In this document: positions 19,360 to 35,563 of the stretch, piece by piece | Layout: every line of letters begins with the position of its first letter | How positions within the stretch are numbered: the stretch's first letter is position 1 | Assembly: GCA_003220595.1 (NCBI GenBank) | Contig: QHSZ01000068.1 | Coordinates: 1 to 47,501, forward strand | Source: Candidatus Rokuibacteriota bacterium | GTDB lineage: Bacteria; Methylomirabilota; Methylomirabilia; Rokubacteriales; CSP1-6 | Direction: 5' to 3' | Length of the DNA: 47,501 bases | Position numbers and translations under genes: made by a program | The notes under the pieces: generated by a model | Database searches by the model: none | What the model saw: only the letters and a program-made list of their open reading frames with translations | What the model was told of the DNA's origin: nothing

Positions 19360-20409
19360 GTGGCGCGCGTAGCGGTCGCCGGAGCGAGCGGCTACATGGG
19401 AGCCGAGCTCCTCCGGCTCCTCCTCGGCCACTCGAAGGTCCGCCTGATGGGTGTGACCTCCGACCGCCTCGCGGGAGAGCCGTTGGCTCGCGCGTACCCG
19501 CATCTGCGCGCGATCACCGATCTCCGCTTCCACGAGCTCGACGCCGACTGGCTCGCGGACACGGCCGACGTGGTGTTCCTGGCCCTGCCCCACATGGAGT
19601 CGCAGAAGATCGTCCCGCTGCTGCGGCGGCGCGGCGTCAAGGCGATCGACCTCTCGGCCGACTATCGGCTGCGCGACGCGAACGACTACGTCACCTGGTA
19701 CAAGGCGCCACACACGGACCTCGCGGGGCTCGCCGAGGCCGTCTACGGCCTGCCCGAGCTCCACCGCAAGGCGATCGCCGGCGCGTCGCTCGTCGCCGCG
19801 CCGGGCTGTTACCCCGCGGGCGCGGTGCTCGCCACGGCGCCCCTCCTCAAGCGCGGGCTCGCCAGGCTCGAGGGCATTGTGATCGATGGCAAGTCCGGCG
19901 TCACCGGCGCCGGCGCCCAGGGTCGGAAGGTCGAGCCGATGTACCTCTACACCGAGGCCAACGAAAACGTGCAGGCCTACGGCGTCGCGAGCCACCGGCA
20001 CACGCCGGAGATCGAGCAGGAGCTCGGGGCGCTCGCGGGCGCGCCGGTGCGGGTCTCGTTCACGCCGCACCTGCTGCCGCTCAACCGGGGCCTCTTCACG
20101 ACCGCCTCGGTGGCGCTCACGCAGGCGCTCCCGACGGGGGCGCTGCTCGAGGTGTACCGCGAGTTCTACGCGGGTGAGCCGTTCGTCCGCGTGCTCGACG
20201 AGGGCGAGCAGCCGGCGACGCGCGCGGTCGTCGGCTCGAACTACTGCGACGTCACGGTGGTCGCCGACGCGCGGACGGGGCGGGCAGTGTGCCTGTCGGC
20301 CCTCGACAACCTCGGCAAGGGCGGCTCGGCCAACGGTGTGCAGAACCTCAACATCCTCTCTGGCTGGCCCGAGCGTGCGGGGCTCGAGGCGCCGCCGGTG
20401 TACCCCTAG
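19360..20409 (+). CDS. argC: N-acetyl-gamma-glutamyl-phosphate reductase
   Basis: ArgC reduces N-acetylglutamyl phosphate to the semialdehyde in arginine synthesis. I choose GTG 19360 because the protein then opens MARVAVAGASGYMGAELLRLL, as ArgC proteins do; GTG 19342, overlapping the rpsI stop, would add six residues. The 349 residues include the NADP-binding GASGYMG, AIDLSADYRLRD, YGLPELHR, AAPGCYPAGAVLA with the catalytic cysteine, GKSGVTGAGAQGR, and SHRHTPEIEQEL with a catalytic histidine. The ending LDNLGKGGSANGVQNLNIL is also typical. It lies directly before argJ (4-bp gap); the remaining arginine genes are not in the window. Confidence 0.95.
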   Translation: MARVAVAGASGYMGAELLRLLLGHSKVRLMGVTSDRLAGEPLARAYPHLRAITDLRFHELDADWLADTADVVFLALPHMESQKIVPLLRRRGVKAIDLSADYRLRDANDYVTWYKAPHTDLAGLAEAVYGLPELHRKAIAGASLVAAPGCYPAGAVLATAPLLKRGLARLEGIVIDGKSGVTGAGAQGRKVEPMYLYTEANENVQAYGVASHRHTPEIEQELGALAGAPVRVSFTPHLLPLNRGLFTTASVALTQALPTGALLEVYREFYAGEPFVRVLDEGEQPATRAVVGSNYCDVTVVADARTGRAVCLSALDNLGKGGSANGVQNLNILSGWPERAGLEAPPVYP

Positions 20410-30897: not shown

Positions 30898-30926
30898 TTG
30901 CCACGGCAGCTGATACGTGCTAAATT
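30898..30926 (+). promoter_or_regulatory. putative sigma70 promoter of the rimP-nusA-infB operon
   Basis: TTGCCA (30898-30903) and TAAATT (30921-30926) are 17 bp apart, matching consensus at 5/6 and 4/6 positions in a locally A/T-rich stretch. The likely start point is near 30933, at the 5' arm of the terminator hairpin that follows, about 55 bp before rimP. The -35 hexamer is identical to that proposed at 5072. Confidence 0.5.
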
Positions 30927-30930
30927 CTTG

Positions 30931-30957
30931 AAAAAGTGGGCGTTGCCCGCTTTTTTT
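30931..30957 (+). terminator. intrinsic terminator between proS and rimP, possibly an attenuator
   Basis: AAAAAGTGGGC (30931-30941), loop GTT, GCCCGCTTTTT (30945-30955) form an 11-bp stem including one G-U pair, followed by a run of seven Ts (30951-30957, shared with the stem). It is the clearest rho-independent terminator in the window. It should stop proS read-through; because the putative promoter directly precedes it, it may also control the downstream operon. Confidence 0.8.
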
Positions 30958-30988
30958 AGTTTTGCCCACGGGCAAGGGGAAAAGCCCA

Positions 30989-31456
30989 ATGGATGACGTG
31001 GAGCGGGTCGACCAGATCGAGGAGGTGGTCACGCCCGTGCTTCATGACCACGGGCTCCAGCTGGTGGATCTGGAGTGGCGTGCCCTGCGGCCGCGCTCAG
31101 TCCTGCGCCTGTTCGTCGACAAGCCCGGTGGCGTGGGCATCGGCGACTGCGAGCGGGCGAGCCGTGAGATCGGCGACGTGCTCGACGCGGCCGCGCTCAT
31201 CGAGGGCACGTACGATCTCGAGGTGTCCTCCCCAGGACTCGACCGGCAGCTCCGGAAGGACCGCGAGTTTCGCTGGGCCGTGGGCCGTCGCGTCAGGTGC
31301 TGGCTCGCGGGCGGTGAGGAGGTGCGCGGCCGACTCGCCGCGGTCGAGCCGGACCGGCTCGTCCTCGAGCGCGACGGAGGACGGGTGGAGTTGCCGCGCG
31401 GAGCGTTGACGAAGGCGCGCCTAGAGGCGGAGGTCCCCTGGCCCCGCAAGGCGTAG
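30989..31456 (+). CDS. rimP: ribosome maturation factor RimP
   Basis: RimP is needed for late maturation of the 30S subunit. I start at ATG 30989, preceded by AAGGGGA (30974-30980); a TTG at 30962 would lie inside the leader hairpins. The 155-residue protein has the N-terminal domain (VVTPVLHDHGLQLVDLEWRAL, LRLFVDKPGGVGIGDCERASREIGDVLDA, TYDLEVSSPGLDRQLRKDREF) and the C-terminal SH3-like domain (VGRRVRCWLAGGEEVRGRLAAVEPDRLVLE). It heads the rimP-nusA-infB operon, the order found in most bacteria, and nusA follows after 27 bp. Confidence 0.95.
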   Translation: MDDVERVDQIEEVVTPVLHDHGLQLVDLEWRALRPRSVLRLFVDKPGGVGIGDCERASREIGDVLDAAALIEGTYDLEVSSPGLDRQLRKDREFRWAVGRRVRCWLAGGEEVRGRLAAVEPDRLVLERDGGRVELPRGALTKARLEAEVPWPRKA

Positions 31457-31483: not shown

Positions 31484-32815
31484 ATGAACCGAGAGTTGAT
31501 CAATGTCATCGAGCAGATCGGGCGCGAGAAGGGGATCGACAAGGAGATCCTCTTTGAGGCGCTGGAGTCTGCCCTGCTCTCGGCCTCGCGCAAGACACTC
31601 GGTCCGGCCGAGAACGTCCGGATGCACATCGACCGCAAGAGCGGCGACCTCCGCGTGTACTGCCGCAAGAAGGTCGTCGGCGAAGTCACCGACGACAAGT
31701 TCGAGATCAGCCTGGAGGACGCGAAAGCCCTGAACAAGGACGCCGAGCTCGACGACGAGCTGGAGCTTGAGCAGGAGCGCCCGCCGCAGGACTTCGGGCG
31801 GATCGCGGCCCAGACGGCCAAGCAGGTGATCCTCCAGAAGGTGCGGGATGCGGAGCGTGAGGGGATCTACTCCGAGTTCGCGGGCAAGGAGGGGCAGATC
31901 TTGCGCGGGGTGGTCCATCGCATCGAGAAGCGCAACGTGATCCTCGAGATCGGCAAGGCGGAGGCGATCCTGCCGGAGCGCGAGCAGATCCCCGGCGAGC
32001 GCTACAACCCCGGCGACCGGATCCGCGCGTACGTGCTCGAGGTGCGCCGGACCGCGAAGGGGCCGCAGATCTCGCTCTCGCGCACGCACCCGGGGTACCT
32101 CGCCCGGCTGTTCGAGACGGAGATCCCCGAGATCCAGGAGGGGATCGTCCTCGTGAAGGCCACGGCGCGGGAGGCCGGCGAGCGCGCGAAGGTGGCGGTC
32201 GCCTCGACCAAGCGCGACGTCGACCCGATCGGGGCCTGTGTCGGCCTGCGCGGCACCCGGATCCAGGTGATCAGCCGGGAGCTGCGCGGCGAGAAGATCG
32301 ACATCATCGAGTGGTCGCACGACCCGGCCACGTTCGTCGCGCGGGCGCTGTCGCCGGCGAAGGTGTCGTCGGTGACGATCGCCGAGCAGGGCGAGCTCGA
32401 CACTCAGCCCTCGGCGCTCGTCATCGTGCCGGATAATCAGCTCTCGCTGGCGATCGGCAAGAAGGGGCAGAACGCGCGCCTGGCCGCGAAGCTCACGGGC
32501 ATGCGCATCGACATCAAGAGCGAGTCGGAGGTCGAGGCCGAGCGGGCGCCGGTCGCCGACCCGGCCGCGGATCGCGCGGCGCTCGACACGCTCGCCGGGA
32601 TGACGCCCGAGGCGGCGGCGGCGCTCAGCGCCGCGGGGCTCGCGTCACCCGCGGCGGTTGCGAAGGCGGGGCGCGAGAGGCTCGCCGCGATGGCGGAGGT
32701 CGGCGACCGCGCGGAGCAGATCCACGCGGCGGCCGAAGCCTGGGTGGCGCGCAAGACGCCGGTGGCGGACGTCGGTTCCGGCGCGGCACCCGCGGAGCCG
32801 GCGGCCTCGGCATGA
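31484..32815 (+). CDS. nusA: transcription termination/antitermination factor NusA
   Basis: NusA binds RNA polymerase and nascent RNA to modulate pausing, termination and rRNA antitermination. I choose ATG 31484, which gives the usual MNRELINVIEQIGREKGID opening after AGGTGG (31467-31472); a GTG at 31469 adds five residues. Domains in the 443-residue protein are: N-terminal polymerase-binding domain (1-130), S1 (about 132-200, GQILRGVVHRIEKRNVILEIG), KH1 and KH2 (about 205-345, including DPIGACVGLRGTRIQ and LAIGKKGQNARLAAKLTGMRIDI), then one Ala-rich helical repeat of AR2/HhH type (LDTLAGMTPEAAAALSAAGL). Its stop overlaps rnpM by 4 nt. NusA autoregulation could act through the leader terminator at 30931-30957. 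Confidence 0.96.
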   Translation: MNRELINVIEQIGREKGIDKEILFEALESALLSASRKTLGPAENVRMHIDRKSGDLRVYCRKKVVGEVTDDKFEISLEDAKALNKDAELDDELELEQERPPQDFGRIAAQTAKQVILQKVRDAEREGIYSEFAGKEGQILRGVVHRIEKRNVILEIGKAEAILPEREQIPGERYNPGDRIRAYVLEVRRTAKGPQISLSRTHPGYLARLFETEIPEIQEGIVLVKATAREAGERAKVAVASTKRDVDPIGACVGLRGTRIQVISRELRGEKIDIIEWSHDPATFVARALSPAKVSSVTIAEQGELDTQPSALVIVPDNQLSLAIGKKGQNARLAAKLTGMRIDIKSESEVEAERAPVADPAADRAALDTLAGMTPEAAAALSAAGLASPAAVAKAGRERLAAMAEVGDRAEQIHAAAEAWVARKTPVADVGSGAAPAEPAASA

Positions 32816-33066
32816 AGCGCGAGCCCGGGCGCACCTGTCTCGGCTGCCGCCGCGTGCTGCCGCGGCGCGCTCTCGTGCGTCTCGTGCGCGGGGACGATGG
32901 CGTCGTCGTGGCCGATCCGCGTGGCTCGGCGAGGGGACGCGGCGCGTGGGTGTGCCCGGTCGAGGCGTGCTTGGCGCGCGCGCTCCAGCGGGGCCGATTG
33001 AGCCACGCGTTCAGGAAGCCGTGTGACGTCGGCAAGGATGTGCTCGAACTGGCTCGGGGGAGGTGA
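32812..33066 (+). CDS. rnpM: YlxR/RnpM family RNA-binding protein (DUF448)
   Basis: This small protein of 84 residues sits, as usual, between nusA and infB. It carries the DUF448 signature: GRTCLGCRRVLPRRALVRLVR, the strand VVVADPRGSARGRGAWVC, and a C-terminal basic helix (CLARALQRGRLSHAFRK). The two C-rich corners resemble zinc-knuckle positions, though metal binding is not assured. The Bacillus and Clostridioides homologues bind RNase P RNA and modulate it, hence the RnpM name. ATG 32812 overlaps the nusA stop (ATGA). The L7Ae-like ylxQ gene found here in Firmicutes is absent. infB starts 7 bp after the stop. Confidence 0.9.
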   Translation: MKREPGRTCLGCRRVLPRRALVRLVRGDDGVVVADPRGSARGRGAWVCPVEACLARALQRGRLSHAFRKPCDVGKDVLELARGR

Positions 33067-33073
33067 GGGAGCC

Positions 33074-35563
33074 GTGGCGGCGAAGATCAAGCTGATGGAA
33101 CTCGCGAAGGAGCTCGGCGTGACCAGCAAGGAGTTGATGGTCGCGGCCGAGGAGATGGGTCACAAGGGCGTACGCGCCATGAGCCCCCTCGATTCGACGC
33201 TCGCGAACGCGCTGAGACTCAAGCTCGGCAAGGGACGCGACCTCCCCGAGGAGCCGAAGCCGAAACGTGTCGCCAAGCCGAAGGCGCCGGCCGACGCCGT
33301 CGGGGCGATCGACGGTGCGCCGGTCAAGAAGCGGACAACGCGCGGAAAGAAGGGCACCGAGGTCGAGCTGGAGGAGGTGCCCGCCGAGGTCAAGCCCGCC
33401 GCCACGATCGTCAAGCCGAGGCCCGCGGTGCCCACGCCCGACATCGCGCCGGAGACGCCGCCGTTGGTCGTCATTCGCGAGCCTGAAGTCGCGCCCGAGC
33501 CCTCCTCCATCGCGCCCGTCGCCGAACCGCAAACGGCCGTCAAGCCTGCCGCGGCGGCCGCGCCGCCACCCTCGGCGCCGCAGGTGAAGAAACCCGAGCC
33601 CAAGATCGTGCCCTTCCGGCCCCTCGAACGCCCGGCGCAGCCGGCGTCGGCGTCGCGACCGTTGCGGCAGCCCACGCCGCGCCCCGCGGCGCCTCCGGCC
33701 GCGGCGAGACCCCAGCAGCCCGCAGCGCCCGCCGCGCCGGCGGCCCCGGTCGCACCGGCCCGTCCAGCCGCGGCGGCGACCGTCATCGAGGCGGCGCCCG
33801 CGCCGCCGGCCGAGGTCAAGCGTGAGCTGATCCGCGTGCCCGAATCGGTCACCGTCGGCGAGCTCGCCGAGAAGATGCGGCGCAAATCGGGCGAGGTCAT
33901 CAAGACCCTGCTCGAGCTCGGCGTGATGGCGACGGTGAACGAGCTGCTCGATGCGACCGCCGCGAAGCTCGTGGCCGACAAGTTCAGCTTCGACGTCGAG
34001 ATCCGCTCGGTCGAGGGCGAGGTGCTCGACGAGGAAGACTCCGATCCGGCGCAGCTGAAGCTGCGCCCGCCCGTCGTCACCGTCATGGGCCACGTCGACC
34101 ACGGCAAGACGTCCCTGCTCGACGCGATCCGGAAGGCGCGCGTCGCCGAGAAGGAATTCGGCGGAATCACGCAGCATATCGGGGCCTACCAGGTGGAGAC
34201 CCGGCACGGCAAGGTCACGTTCCTCGACACGCCGGGCCACGAGGCGTTCACGGCGATGCGCGCCCGCGGGGCCCAGGCGACCGATATCGTCATCCTCGTC
34301 GTCGCGGCCGACGACGGGGTCATGCCTCAGACCGTCGAGGCCATCAACCATGCCCGCGCGGCCAACGTGCCGATCGTCGTCGCCGTGAACAAGGTCGACA
34401 AGCCCGAGGCCGACCCCGAGCGCGTCAAGCGCGAGCTGGCCAACCACGCGCTCGTCCCCGAGGAGTGGGGCGGCCAGACGATCTACGTGCCGACGTCCGC
34501 GAAAAAGGGGACGGGTATCGATCAGCTCCTCGAGATGACCGCGCTCCAGTCGGAGATCCTCGAGTTGAAGGCGAACCCGACGCGCGCGGCGAAGGGCGTG
34601 ATCATCGAGAGCCGGCTCGATCGCGGGCGCGGCCCGGTCGCGACGGTGCTCATCCAGAACGGAACGCTCAAGGAGGGTGACGCGGTGGTCGTCGGCGCCC
34701 ACTCGGGGCGGATCCGCGCCCTGATCGACCCGAGCGGCAAGAAGGTCAAGAGCGCGGGCCCGTCCGACCCGGTCGAGATCCAGGGTCTCTCCGGCGTGCC
34801 CTCGGCGGGGGACGTTCTGGTGGCGGTGTCCGACGAGCGCAAGGCGCGGCAGATCGCGACCATGCGCCAGGATCGCGAGAAGGCGAAGGGGAAGGCATCG
34901 ACGCGGATCACGCTCGAGGGGCTCCAGAAGCAGATCCAGACCGGCGAGGTGAAGGAGCTCCGCCTCATCCTCAAGGCCGACGTGCAGGGCTCCGTCGAGG
35001 CGCTGGCCGAGGCGCTCGAGCGCCTCTCGACCGACGAGGTCAAGCTGAAGGTCATCCACAGCTCGGTCGGCGCCATCAACGAGAGCGACGTCATGCTGGC
35101 CTCGGCGTCGAACGCGGTCGTCATCGGCTTCAACGTGAAACCCGAGGCGAAGGCCGTCACGCAGGCGCAGGCCAACGGAGTGGACGTCCGGACCTACAAC
35201 GTCATCTACGAGGCGATCAACGACCTCCGGGCGGCGCTGGCCGGCATGCTCGCGCCCGAGATCCGCGAGACCGCGCTCGGCCGTGCGCAGGTGCGGCAGA
35301 TCTTCGTGATCTCGAAGCTCGGCCCGATCTGCGGCTCGTACGTCGCCGAGGGCAAGATCACCCGGGCGGCCAAAGTCCGGGTGCGGCGCGGCGACGAAGT
35401 GGTGGGCACGGGCACGGTCGGCTCGCTCAAACGCTTCAAGGACGACGTCCGCGAGGTGCTGGCCGGCCTCGAGTGCGGAATCGGCGTCGACGGGGTGAGC
35501 GGAGTCCAGCCGGGCGACATCCTCGAGCTCTACACGGTCGAGGAGGTGGCGCGCACGCTCTAG
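33074..35563 (+). CDS. infB: translation initiation factor IF-2
   Basis: IF-2 is the GTPase that places initiator tRNA on the ribosome. I start at GTG 33074 after GGGGGAGG (33056-33063); the product has 829 residues. It opens with an IF2_N domain ([19 protein letters not shown]), then a long Pro/Ala/Lys linker (about 60-245), a second IF2_N-like domain ([29 protein letters not shown]), and the G domain from about 335: [27 protein letters not shown] and [14 protein letters not shown], then [13 protein letters not shown]. Domains II-IV follow to the end ([34 protein letters not shown]). All motifs are intact. The DUF503 gene starts 24 bp downstream. Confidence 0.97.

Follow-up and report, generated by a model that had tools for sequence, protein, structure and literature searches.

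The rimP-nusA-ylxR-infB operon of the window (i.e. the whole 47,501-nt stretch of DNA that was analysed; all coordinates are window positions) is preceded by a promoter that runs directly into an intrinsic terminator hairpin, and it is very probable that this promoter-proximal terminator attenuates the operon, with NusA occupancy as the proposed switch. The element is almost certainly the rimP-leader that has already been described. What is new here is i) that in the family of genomes to which the window belongs the stem core is predicted to start ~4 nt into the RNA, giving a predicted terminated RNA of ~25 nt, and ii) that the leader follows nusA. The features concerned are listed below.

30898-30926, plus strand: sigma-70-type promoter, with the -35 TTGCCA (30898-30903), a 17-nt spacer and the extended -10 TG-C-TAAATT (30918-30926)
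30921-30926, plus strand: -10 TAAATT, with the extended TG at 30918-30919, read from the sequence
30933, plus strand: predicted transcription start, placed 7 nt past the -10, a spacing that is nearly fixed in the family
30931-30955, plus strand: intrinsic terminator hairpin AAAAAGTGGGC-GTT-GCCCGCTTTTT, from its fold, pair counts and the covariance model R1
30936-30941 and 30945-30950, plus strand: core stem of the terminator in the predicted fold, GTGGGC with GCCCGC, around a 3-nt loop
30951-30957, plus strand: U-tract of seven uninterrupted U, the predicted release point of an RNA of ~25 nt
30962-30975, plus strand: local hairpin UUGCC-CACG-GGCAA in the predicted fold, 30962-30966 pairing with 30971-30975; not conserved
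30974-30979, plus strand: Shine-Dalgarno-like AAGGGG, 9 nt 5' of the ATG, identified by eye
30989-31456, plus strand: rimP (PF02576, E 2.3e-21; PF17384, E 1.2e-10)
31484-32815, plus strand: nusA, with NusA_N, S1 and KH domains (PF08529, E 3.8e-42)
32812-33066, plus strand: ylxR (PF04296)
33083-35563, plus strand: infB, start approximate (PF11987, PF04760)

The letters and coordinates given in a preliminary description of this DNA all proved correct when re-checked. The hairpin begins 4 bases past the -10, the gap from the terminator to rimP is 31 nt, and the two outermost A-U pairs of the hairpin would precede the predicted transcription start. Folding of 30 nt gave -13.8 kcal/mol (z -3.8), and the promoter-like match at 30898-30926 was unique on both strands of the 8 kb scanned, where 0.2 matches were expected. 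A hairpin followed by a U-tract is not beyond chance in a window of this kind: a plain terminator scan of the 8 kb found 3 sites with 3.1 expected, and a scan of the entire window under stricter criteria found three, of which the hairpin of the rimP leader ranked third (core-stem energy -8.7). A site of -8 kcal/mol or better was present in 25 of 60 shuffled windows. The significance of the hairpin comes from its conservation across genomes and not from the window alone. The stem-plus-T pattern has a single occurrence in the 4.06-Mb genome to which the window belongs. Two further hairpins were seen in passing. The strongest hairpin with a U-rich tail in the window is at 19968 on the minus strand (-15.0 kcal/mol, tail TTTTCGTT), and the local hairpin UUGCC-CACG-GGCAA, which is found in a few close relatives, adjoins the rimP Shine-Dalgarno AAGGGG (30962-30979) and could affect translation.

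We found rimP in 54 of the 57 genomes of the family, and the promoter-terminator unit stands before it in all 54 (53 by the script's motif; L033, which has a single changed base beside the stem, was recognised by eye), which confirms the earlier claim of a promoter followed immediately by a strong terminator before rimP-nusA. A covariance model (R1), made for the hairpin from the leaders of the family and of the rest of the class, matched 54 of the 57 family genomes at one place each, always 14-183 nt 5' of rimP and on its strand; the three genomes with no match are also the ones that yielded no rimP. A strict promoter-plus-hairpin pattern occurred once each in 42 of the 57 genomes and not at all in the reversed control. 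Counted from the first base of the -10, the stem core lies at 15 nt in 44 of the 54 leaders, at 16 nt in 8 and at 14 nt in 1; for L040 the script picked the wrong -10, and the distance by eye is 16 nt. A spacer of 17 or 18 nt separates a TTG from the -10 in 53 of the 54. The distance from the end of the stem core to the gene match, at 22-191 nt, is variable. If transcription is assumed to start 7 nt past the -10, the stem core of the family is predicted to begin at about the fourth nucleotide of the RNA and the terminated RNA to be ~25 nt long.

Together with 35 leaders from the rest of the class, the family gave a set of 89. A terminator finder that uses no motif detected a hairpin with a U-rich tail in 33 of these 35 class leaders, and in each of the 33 the 5' arm contains GTGGGC. 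Its two misses (L056 and L058) have a shortened stem in which CGGGC, GCCCGC and a U-rich tail are kept; having no core by the script they were excluded, and the remaining 87 leaders were used for the pairing tests, the covariation analysis, the tail counts and an alignment (A1) of their 65 distinct hairpins. Among the 33 class leaders with a core, the -10-to-core spacing is 13-23 nt in the 28 that have a plausible TG-type pick (4 leaders gave no -10, and the one pick at 8 nt, in L089, is probably wrong), TTG at a 16-18-nt spacer is present in 24, and the stem core is predicted to start 2-12 nt into the RNA in most. The U-tract is interrupted in many of the 33 (for instance CTCTTTGTTTT and CTTTCTTATTT), and an interrupted U-tract makes a poorer classical terminator. 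The leaders of one family, f10 (L056 and L058, in which the stem is reduced to about CGGGC/GCCCG, and others such as L068, L076-L078 and L080-L082), have a broken U-tract (CUUUGUUUUAU) and a longer loop; here the element may cause pausing rather than termination.

Covariation gives the hairpin modest support. Standard pairs fill 95.5% of the pair cells in the 65 distinct hairpins, and double changes are seen in 3 of the 10 stem pairs, one of them a change from G-C to C-G right next to the UGGGC core. Such double-change cells number 19, compared with 5.4 when partners are shuffled; when the 3' partners were moved by +2 columns, 10 double-change cells in 2 pairs remained (score 0.143 vs 0.166). 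The four GGGC/GCCC pairs are invariant in all 65 aligned hairpins, partly as a result of how the sequences were picked, and are therefore uninformative by covariation; the motif-free finder recovered the same core in 33 of the 35 class leaders.

The pattern AGAGTGGG-N3-8-CCCACTCTTT, applied without reference to genes to a collection of genomes from 84,980 species, gave at least 117 stretches. Among the 117 matches listed, 110 have rimP (102) or nusA (8) within 700 nt downstream. Six of the others listed (L095, L102, L127, L158, L171 and L189), for which neither gene was found downstream in the available DNA, are possibly ordinary terminators, and for the seventh (L132) the available sequence ends before a gene could appear. 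The eight listed matches in which nusA comes first are from Atribacteria, Planctomycetota, Akkermansiaceae (2), Prosthecobacter, Elusimicrobiota, Verrucomicrobiales and Armatimonadota; a search of these eight genomes, whose completeness is not given, with RimP_N found no match in any. We then sampled 57 genomes (L208-L264) around one of them (G097), from the same order. NusA_N was found in 57 of 57 and RimP_N in none, although a RimP too divergent for Pfam is possible.

In this rimP-free order a terminator-like hairpin lies 5' of nusA in 56 of the 57 genomes, many of which are close relatives, so that the counts are not independent. The hairpin has the TGGG..CCC[A/G] core and a U-rich tail in 43 of the 57, the class to which the shuffle control applies (10 of 1140 base shuffles have the core), and in 13 it is another GC-rich hairpin with a U-rich tail (CGGGA..TCCCG in 10). 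One leader (L210) fell outside the script's classes and has, by eye, an imperfect version, GAGAGTGGGC..GCCC..CTCTCTTTTTT; in three others (L241, L263 and L264) the contig starts less than 260 nt from nusA. A loose stem pattern was uninformative in this order, with 60 places in 38 of the 57 genomes as against 119 places in the reversed control. A literature search, which covered few subscription journals, found no statement on a nusA leader without rimP. The original rimP-leader paper left open whether RimP or NusA is the regulator, and the rimP-free order bears on this choice: that nearly all of its genomes, in which no rimP was detected, have a terminator-like hairpin before nusA favours NusA over RimP.

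The hairpin lies ~65 nt past the stop codon of proS, and it might therefore be read as the terminator of the upstream proS transcript, overlapped by the promoter by chance; such a terminator would also block read-through from proS. We consider this improbable, as the hairpin stays while the upstream gene changes. When ~1.2-2 kb of upstream DNA was searched, proS was found in 50 of the 54 family loci and in 3 of the 35 other class loci (L085-L087), and the hairpin is kept at all 4 family loci and at 32 of the 35 other class loci (2 with a shortened stem) where proS was not found upstream. By eye, the upstream frame resembles the C-terminus of an EF-G-type protein in the majority of the other class loci, and among the four proS-free family loci two have ispG-like frames upstream and one a ferredoxin-like frame. 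The position of the hairpin is also fixed relative to the promoter, and hairpins stand before nusA in other phyla too. A role as proS terminator was accordingly rejected as the main function, and the attenuation of the NusA operon that the preliminary description had raised is very probable, the hairpin being conserved with rimP or nusA regardless of the upstream gene and fitting the published rimP-leader.

It is likewise very improbable that the palindrome at the start site acts as DNA, as an operator bound by a repressor, rather than as an RNA element. The site is a near inverted repeat, and in 22 of the 54 genomes R1 matches the opposite strand there as well. However, a U-G wobble in 35 of the 87 leaders keeps the RNA stem and breaks the DNA symmetry, the loop varies between 3 and 7 nt, and T-richness downstream (means of 9.2 and 9.0 of 12, where at least 5 T of 12 were already required when the leaders were picked) exceeds A-richness upstream (5.8 and 4.8 of 12); moreover Naville and Gautheret report the element as a terminator. 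On the wobble pairs, loop lengths and T/A asymmetry the operator was rejected. The hairpin might also, at the 5' terminus of the RNA, mainly stabilise the mRNA end or pause RNA polymerase with little termination, to which we give a slim chance. What would suit such a role is how early the core is predicted to begin, at ~4 nt of the RNA in the family and 2-12 nt in most class leaders, together with the interrupted U-tracts of many leaders from the rest of the class. Against it, the tails average ~9 U of 12, well above the 5 of 12 required, the window itself has seven uninterrupted U, and termination is reported for the leaders of S. agalactiae and B. subtilis.

The preliminary description had also proposed a switch between the terminator and a competing fold, in which TTGCCCG (30943-30949) would pair with CGGGCAA (30969-30975) and TGGGC (30937-30941) with GCCCA (30984-30988). 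These pairings are present in the window; they are not conserved, and the homologous leaders retain the terminator and not the pairings. We searched for the named pairings and for any helix that a terminator arm could form with the 45 nt that follow, and found no conserved antiterminator among the 87 leaders. The 7-bp helix with the 3' arm occurs in only 5 of the 54 family leaders (L001, which is the leader in the window, and L002, L003, L005 and L006) and in none of the 33 other class leaders, and a 5'-arm helix of at least 5 bp occurs in 6 of the 54 and none of the 33. The mean longest helix equals that of shuffles for the 3' arm plus loop (4.5 vs 4.3 in the family, 4.1 vs 4.2 in the other class leaders) and for the 5' arm (3.3 vs 3.2 and 2.7 vs 2.8, respectively). 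In the window the 7-bp match of the 3' arm was equalled in 1 of 100 shuffles, and is thus locally unusual and shared only by close relatives; the 6-bp match of the 5' arm was equalled in 9 of 100.

The competing fold, when forced, reached -15.0 kcal/mol compared with -25.2 kcal/mol for the terminator fold, i.e. it is ~10 kcal/mol weaker, and most of CGGGCAA is better used in the local hairpin of 30962-30966 with 30971-30975. In addition, the partner strand is made 12-18 nt past the U-tract, which is too late to prevent termination. An antiterminator switch is therefore extremely unlikely, and was rejected on the conservation test and the order of transcription.

In the attenuation mechanism that we prefer, RNA polymerase would start at ~30933 and would transcribe the terminator hairpin first, which would form as the RNA leaves the polymerase. 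A share of polymerases would stop at ~30957 and release an RNA of ~25 nt, and the others would continue into rimP-nusA. NusA, when abundant, would join the polymerase, promote termination at the hairpin and so lower expression of its own operon; when NusA is scarce there would be more read-through. No antiterminator RNA fold would be needed. We infer the start site, the termination and its efficiency and, by analogy, the identity of the effector. NusA is the best candidate, supported by the analogy with B. subtilis, for which autoregulation by leader termination is published.

Sigma region 4 leaves the flap of the polymerase, where NusA binds, and with so tight a placement behind the promoter, termination would be decided directly after this departure. 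A predicted RNA of ~25 nt gives NusA little room for loading after sigma, and this counts against the NusA mechanism. It is possible, if on balance unlikely, that in the family the attenuator is fused to the core promoter, that the decision is taken at ~+25 and gauges free NusA by the speed with which sigma is replaced at promoter escape and not by the NusA on elongating polymerase, and that the wider rimP-leader is an ancient nusA-leader which nusA kept after the loss of rimP. In the window, which comes from a deep lineage, a very widespread attenuator of bacteria takes a highly compact form, a promoter plus ~25 nt, and the terminated RNA of ~25 nt would be a minimal template for asking how early NusA can act after initiation.

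Several leaders of the same operon are known. Rfam gave no gathering matches in the window; the sub-threshold matches (8 up to E 5, the best being STnc40 with E 0.21 and 19.8 of 45 bits) were taken as chance. RF01770 is described as the gammaproteobacterial rimP leader (PMC5955585), and belongs to the same operon with the same proposed kind of regulation; its covariance model has 102 positions and gave no match to the leader of the window. For E. coli, two terminators, t1 and t2, are reported upstream of rimP (PMC6511841). For the rimP leader of S. agalactiae, mapped by RNA-seq, a short RNA and a long transcript are reported to share their start, with termination 31 nt after it, and feedback by NusA was suggested (PMC4448216); the short RNA is mapped there, whereas the RNA of ~25 nt in the window is predicted. 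For B. subtilis, NusA-stimulated intrinsic termination in the leader is stated to control nusA (reviewed in PMC12288461), and the leader, before rimP, is given as 180 nt (PMC2965389); in the window, a terminator in the nusA operon is placed by sequence downstream of a predicted promoter and of a predicted start site.

The closest likeness in these sources is to the general rimP-leader of Naville and Gautheret (2010), reported as a terminator in the 5' UTR of rimP-nusA-infB that has GGGc(...)gCCC and a U-stretch, stands 4-130 nt ahead of the gene and shows no visible antiterminator; NusA was proposed as its effector (PMC2965389). The window likewise has its hairpin in the 5' leader of a rimP-nusA-infB operon, with GGGC-GTT-GCCC at 30938-30948 and the U-stretch directly after it at 30951-30957, its gap of 31 nt falls within the published range, and no conserved antiterminator was found here. 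Unlike the rimP-leaders of the wide scan, in which the core lies a median of 38 nt past the first base of the -10 (an approximate value from nearest-hexamer picks, some of them possibly false, for the 104 of 110 listed leaders with a -10-like site), the family has its core locked 14-16 nt past that base.
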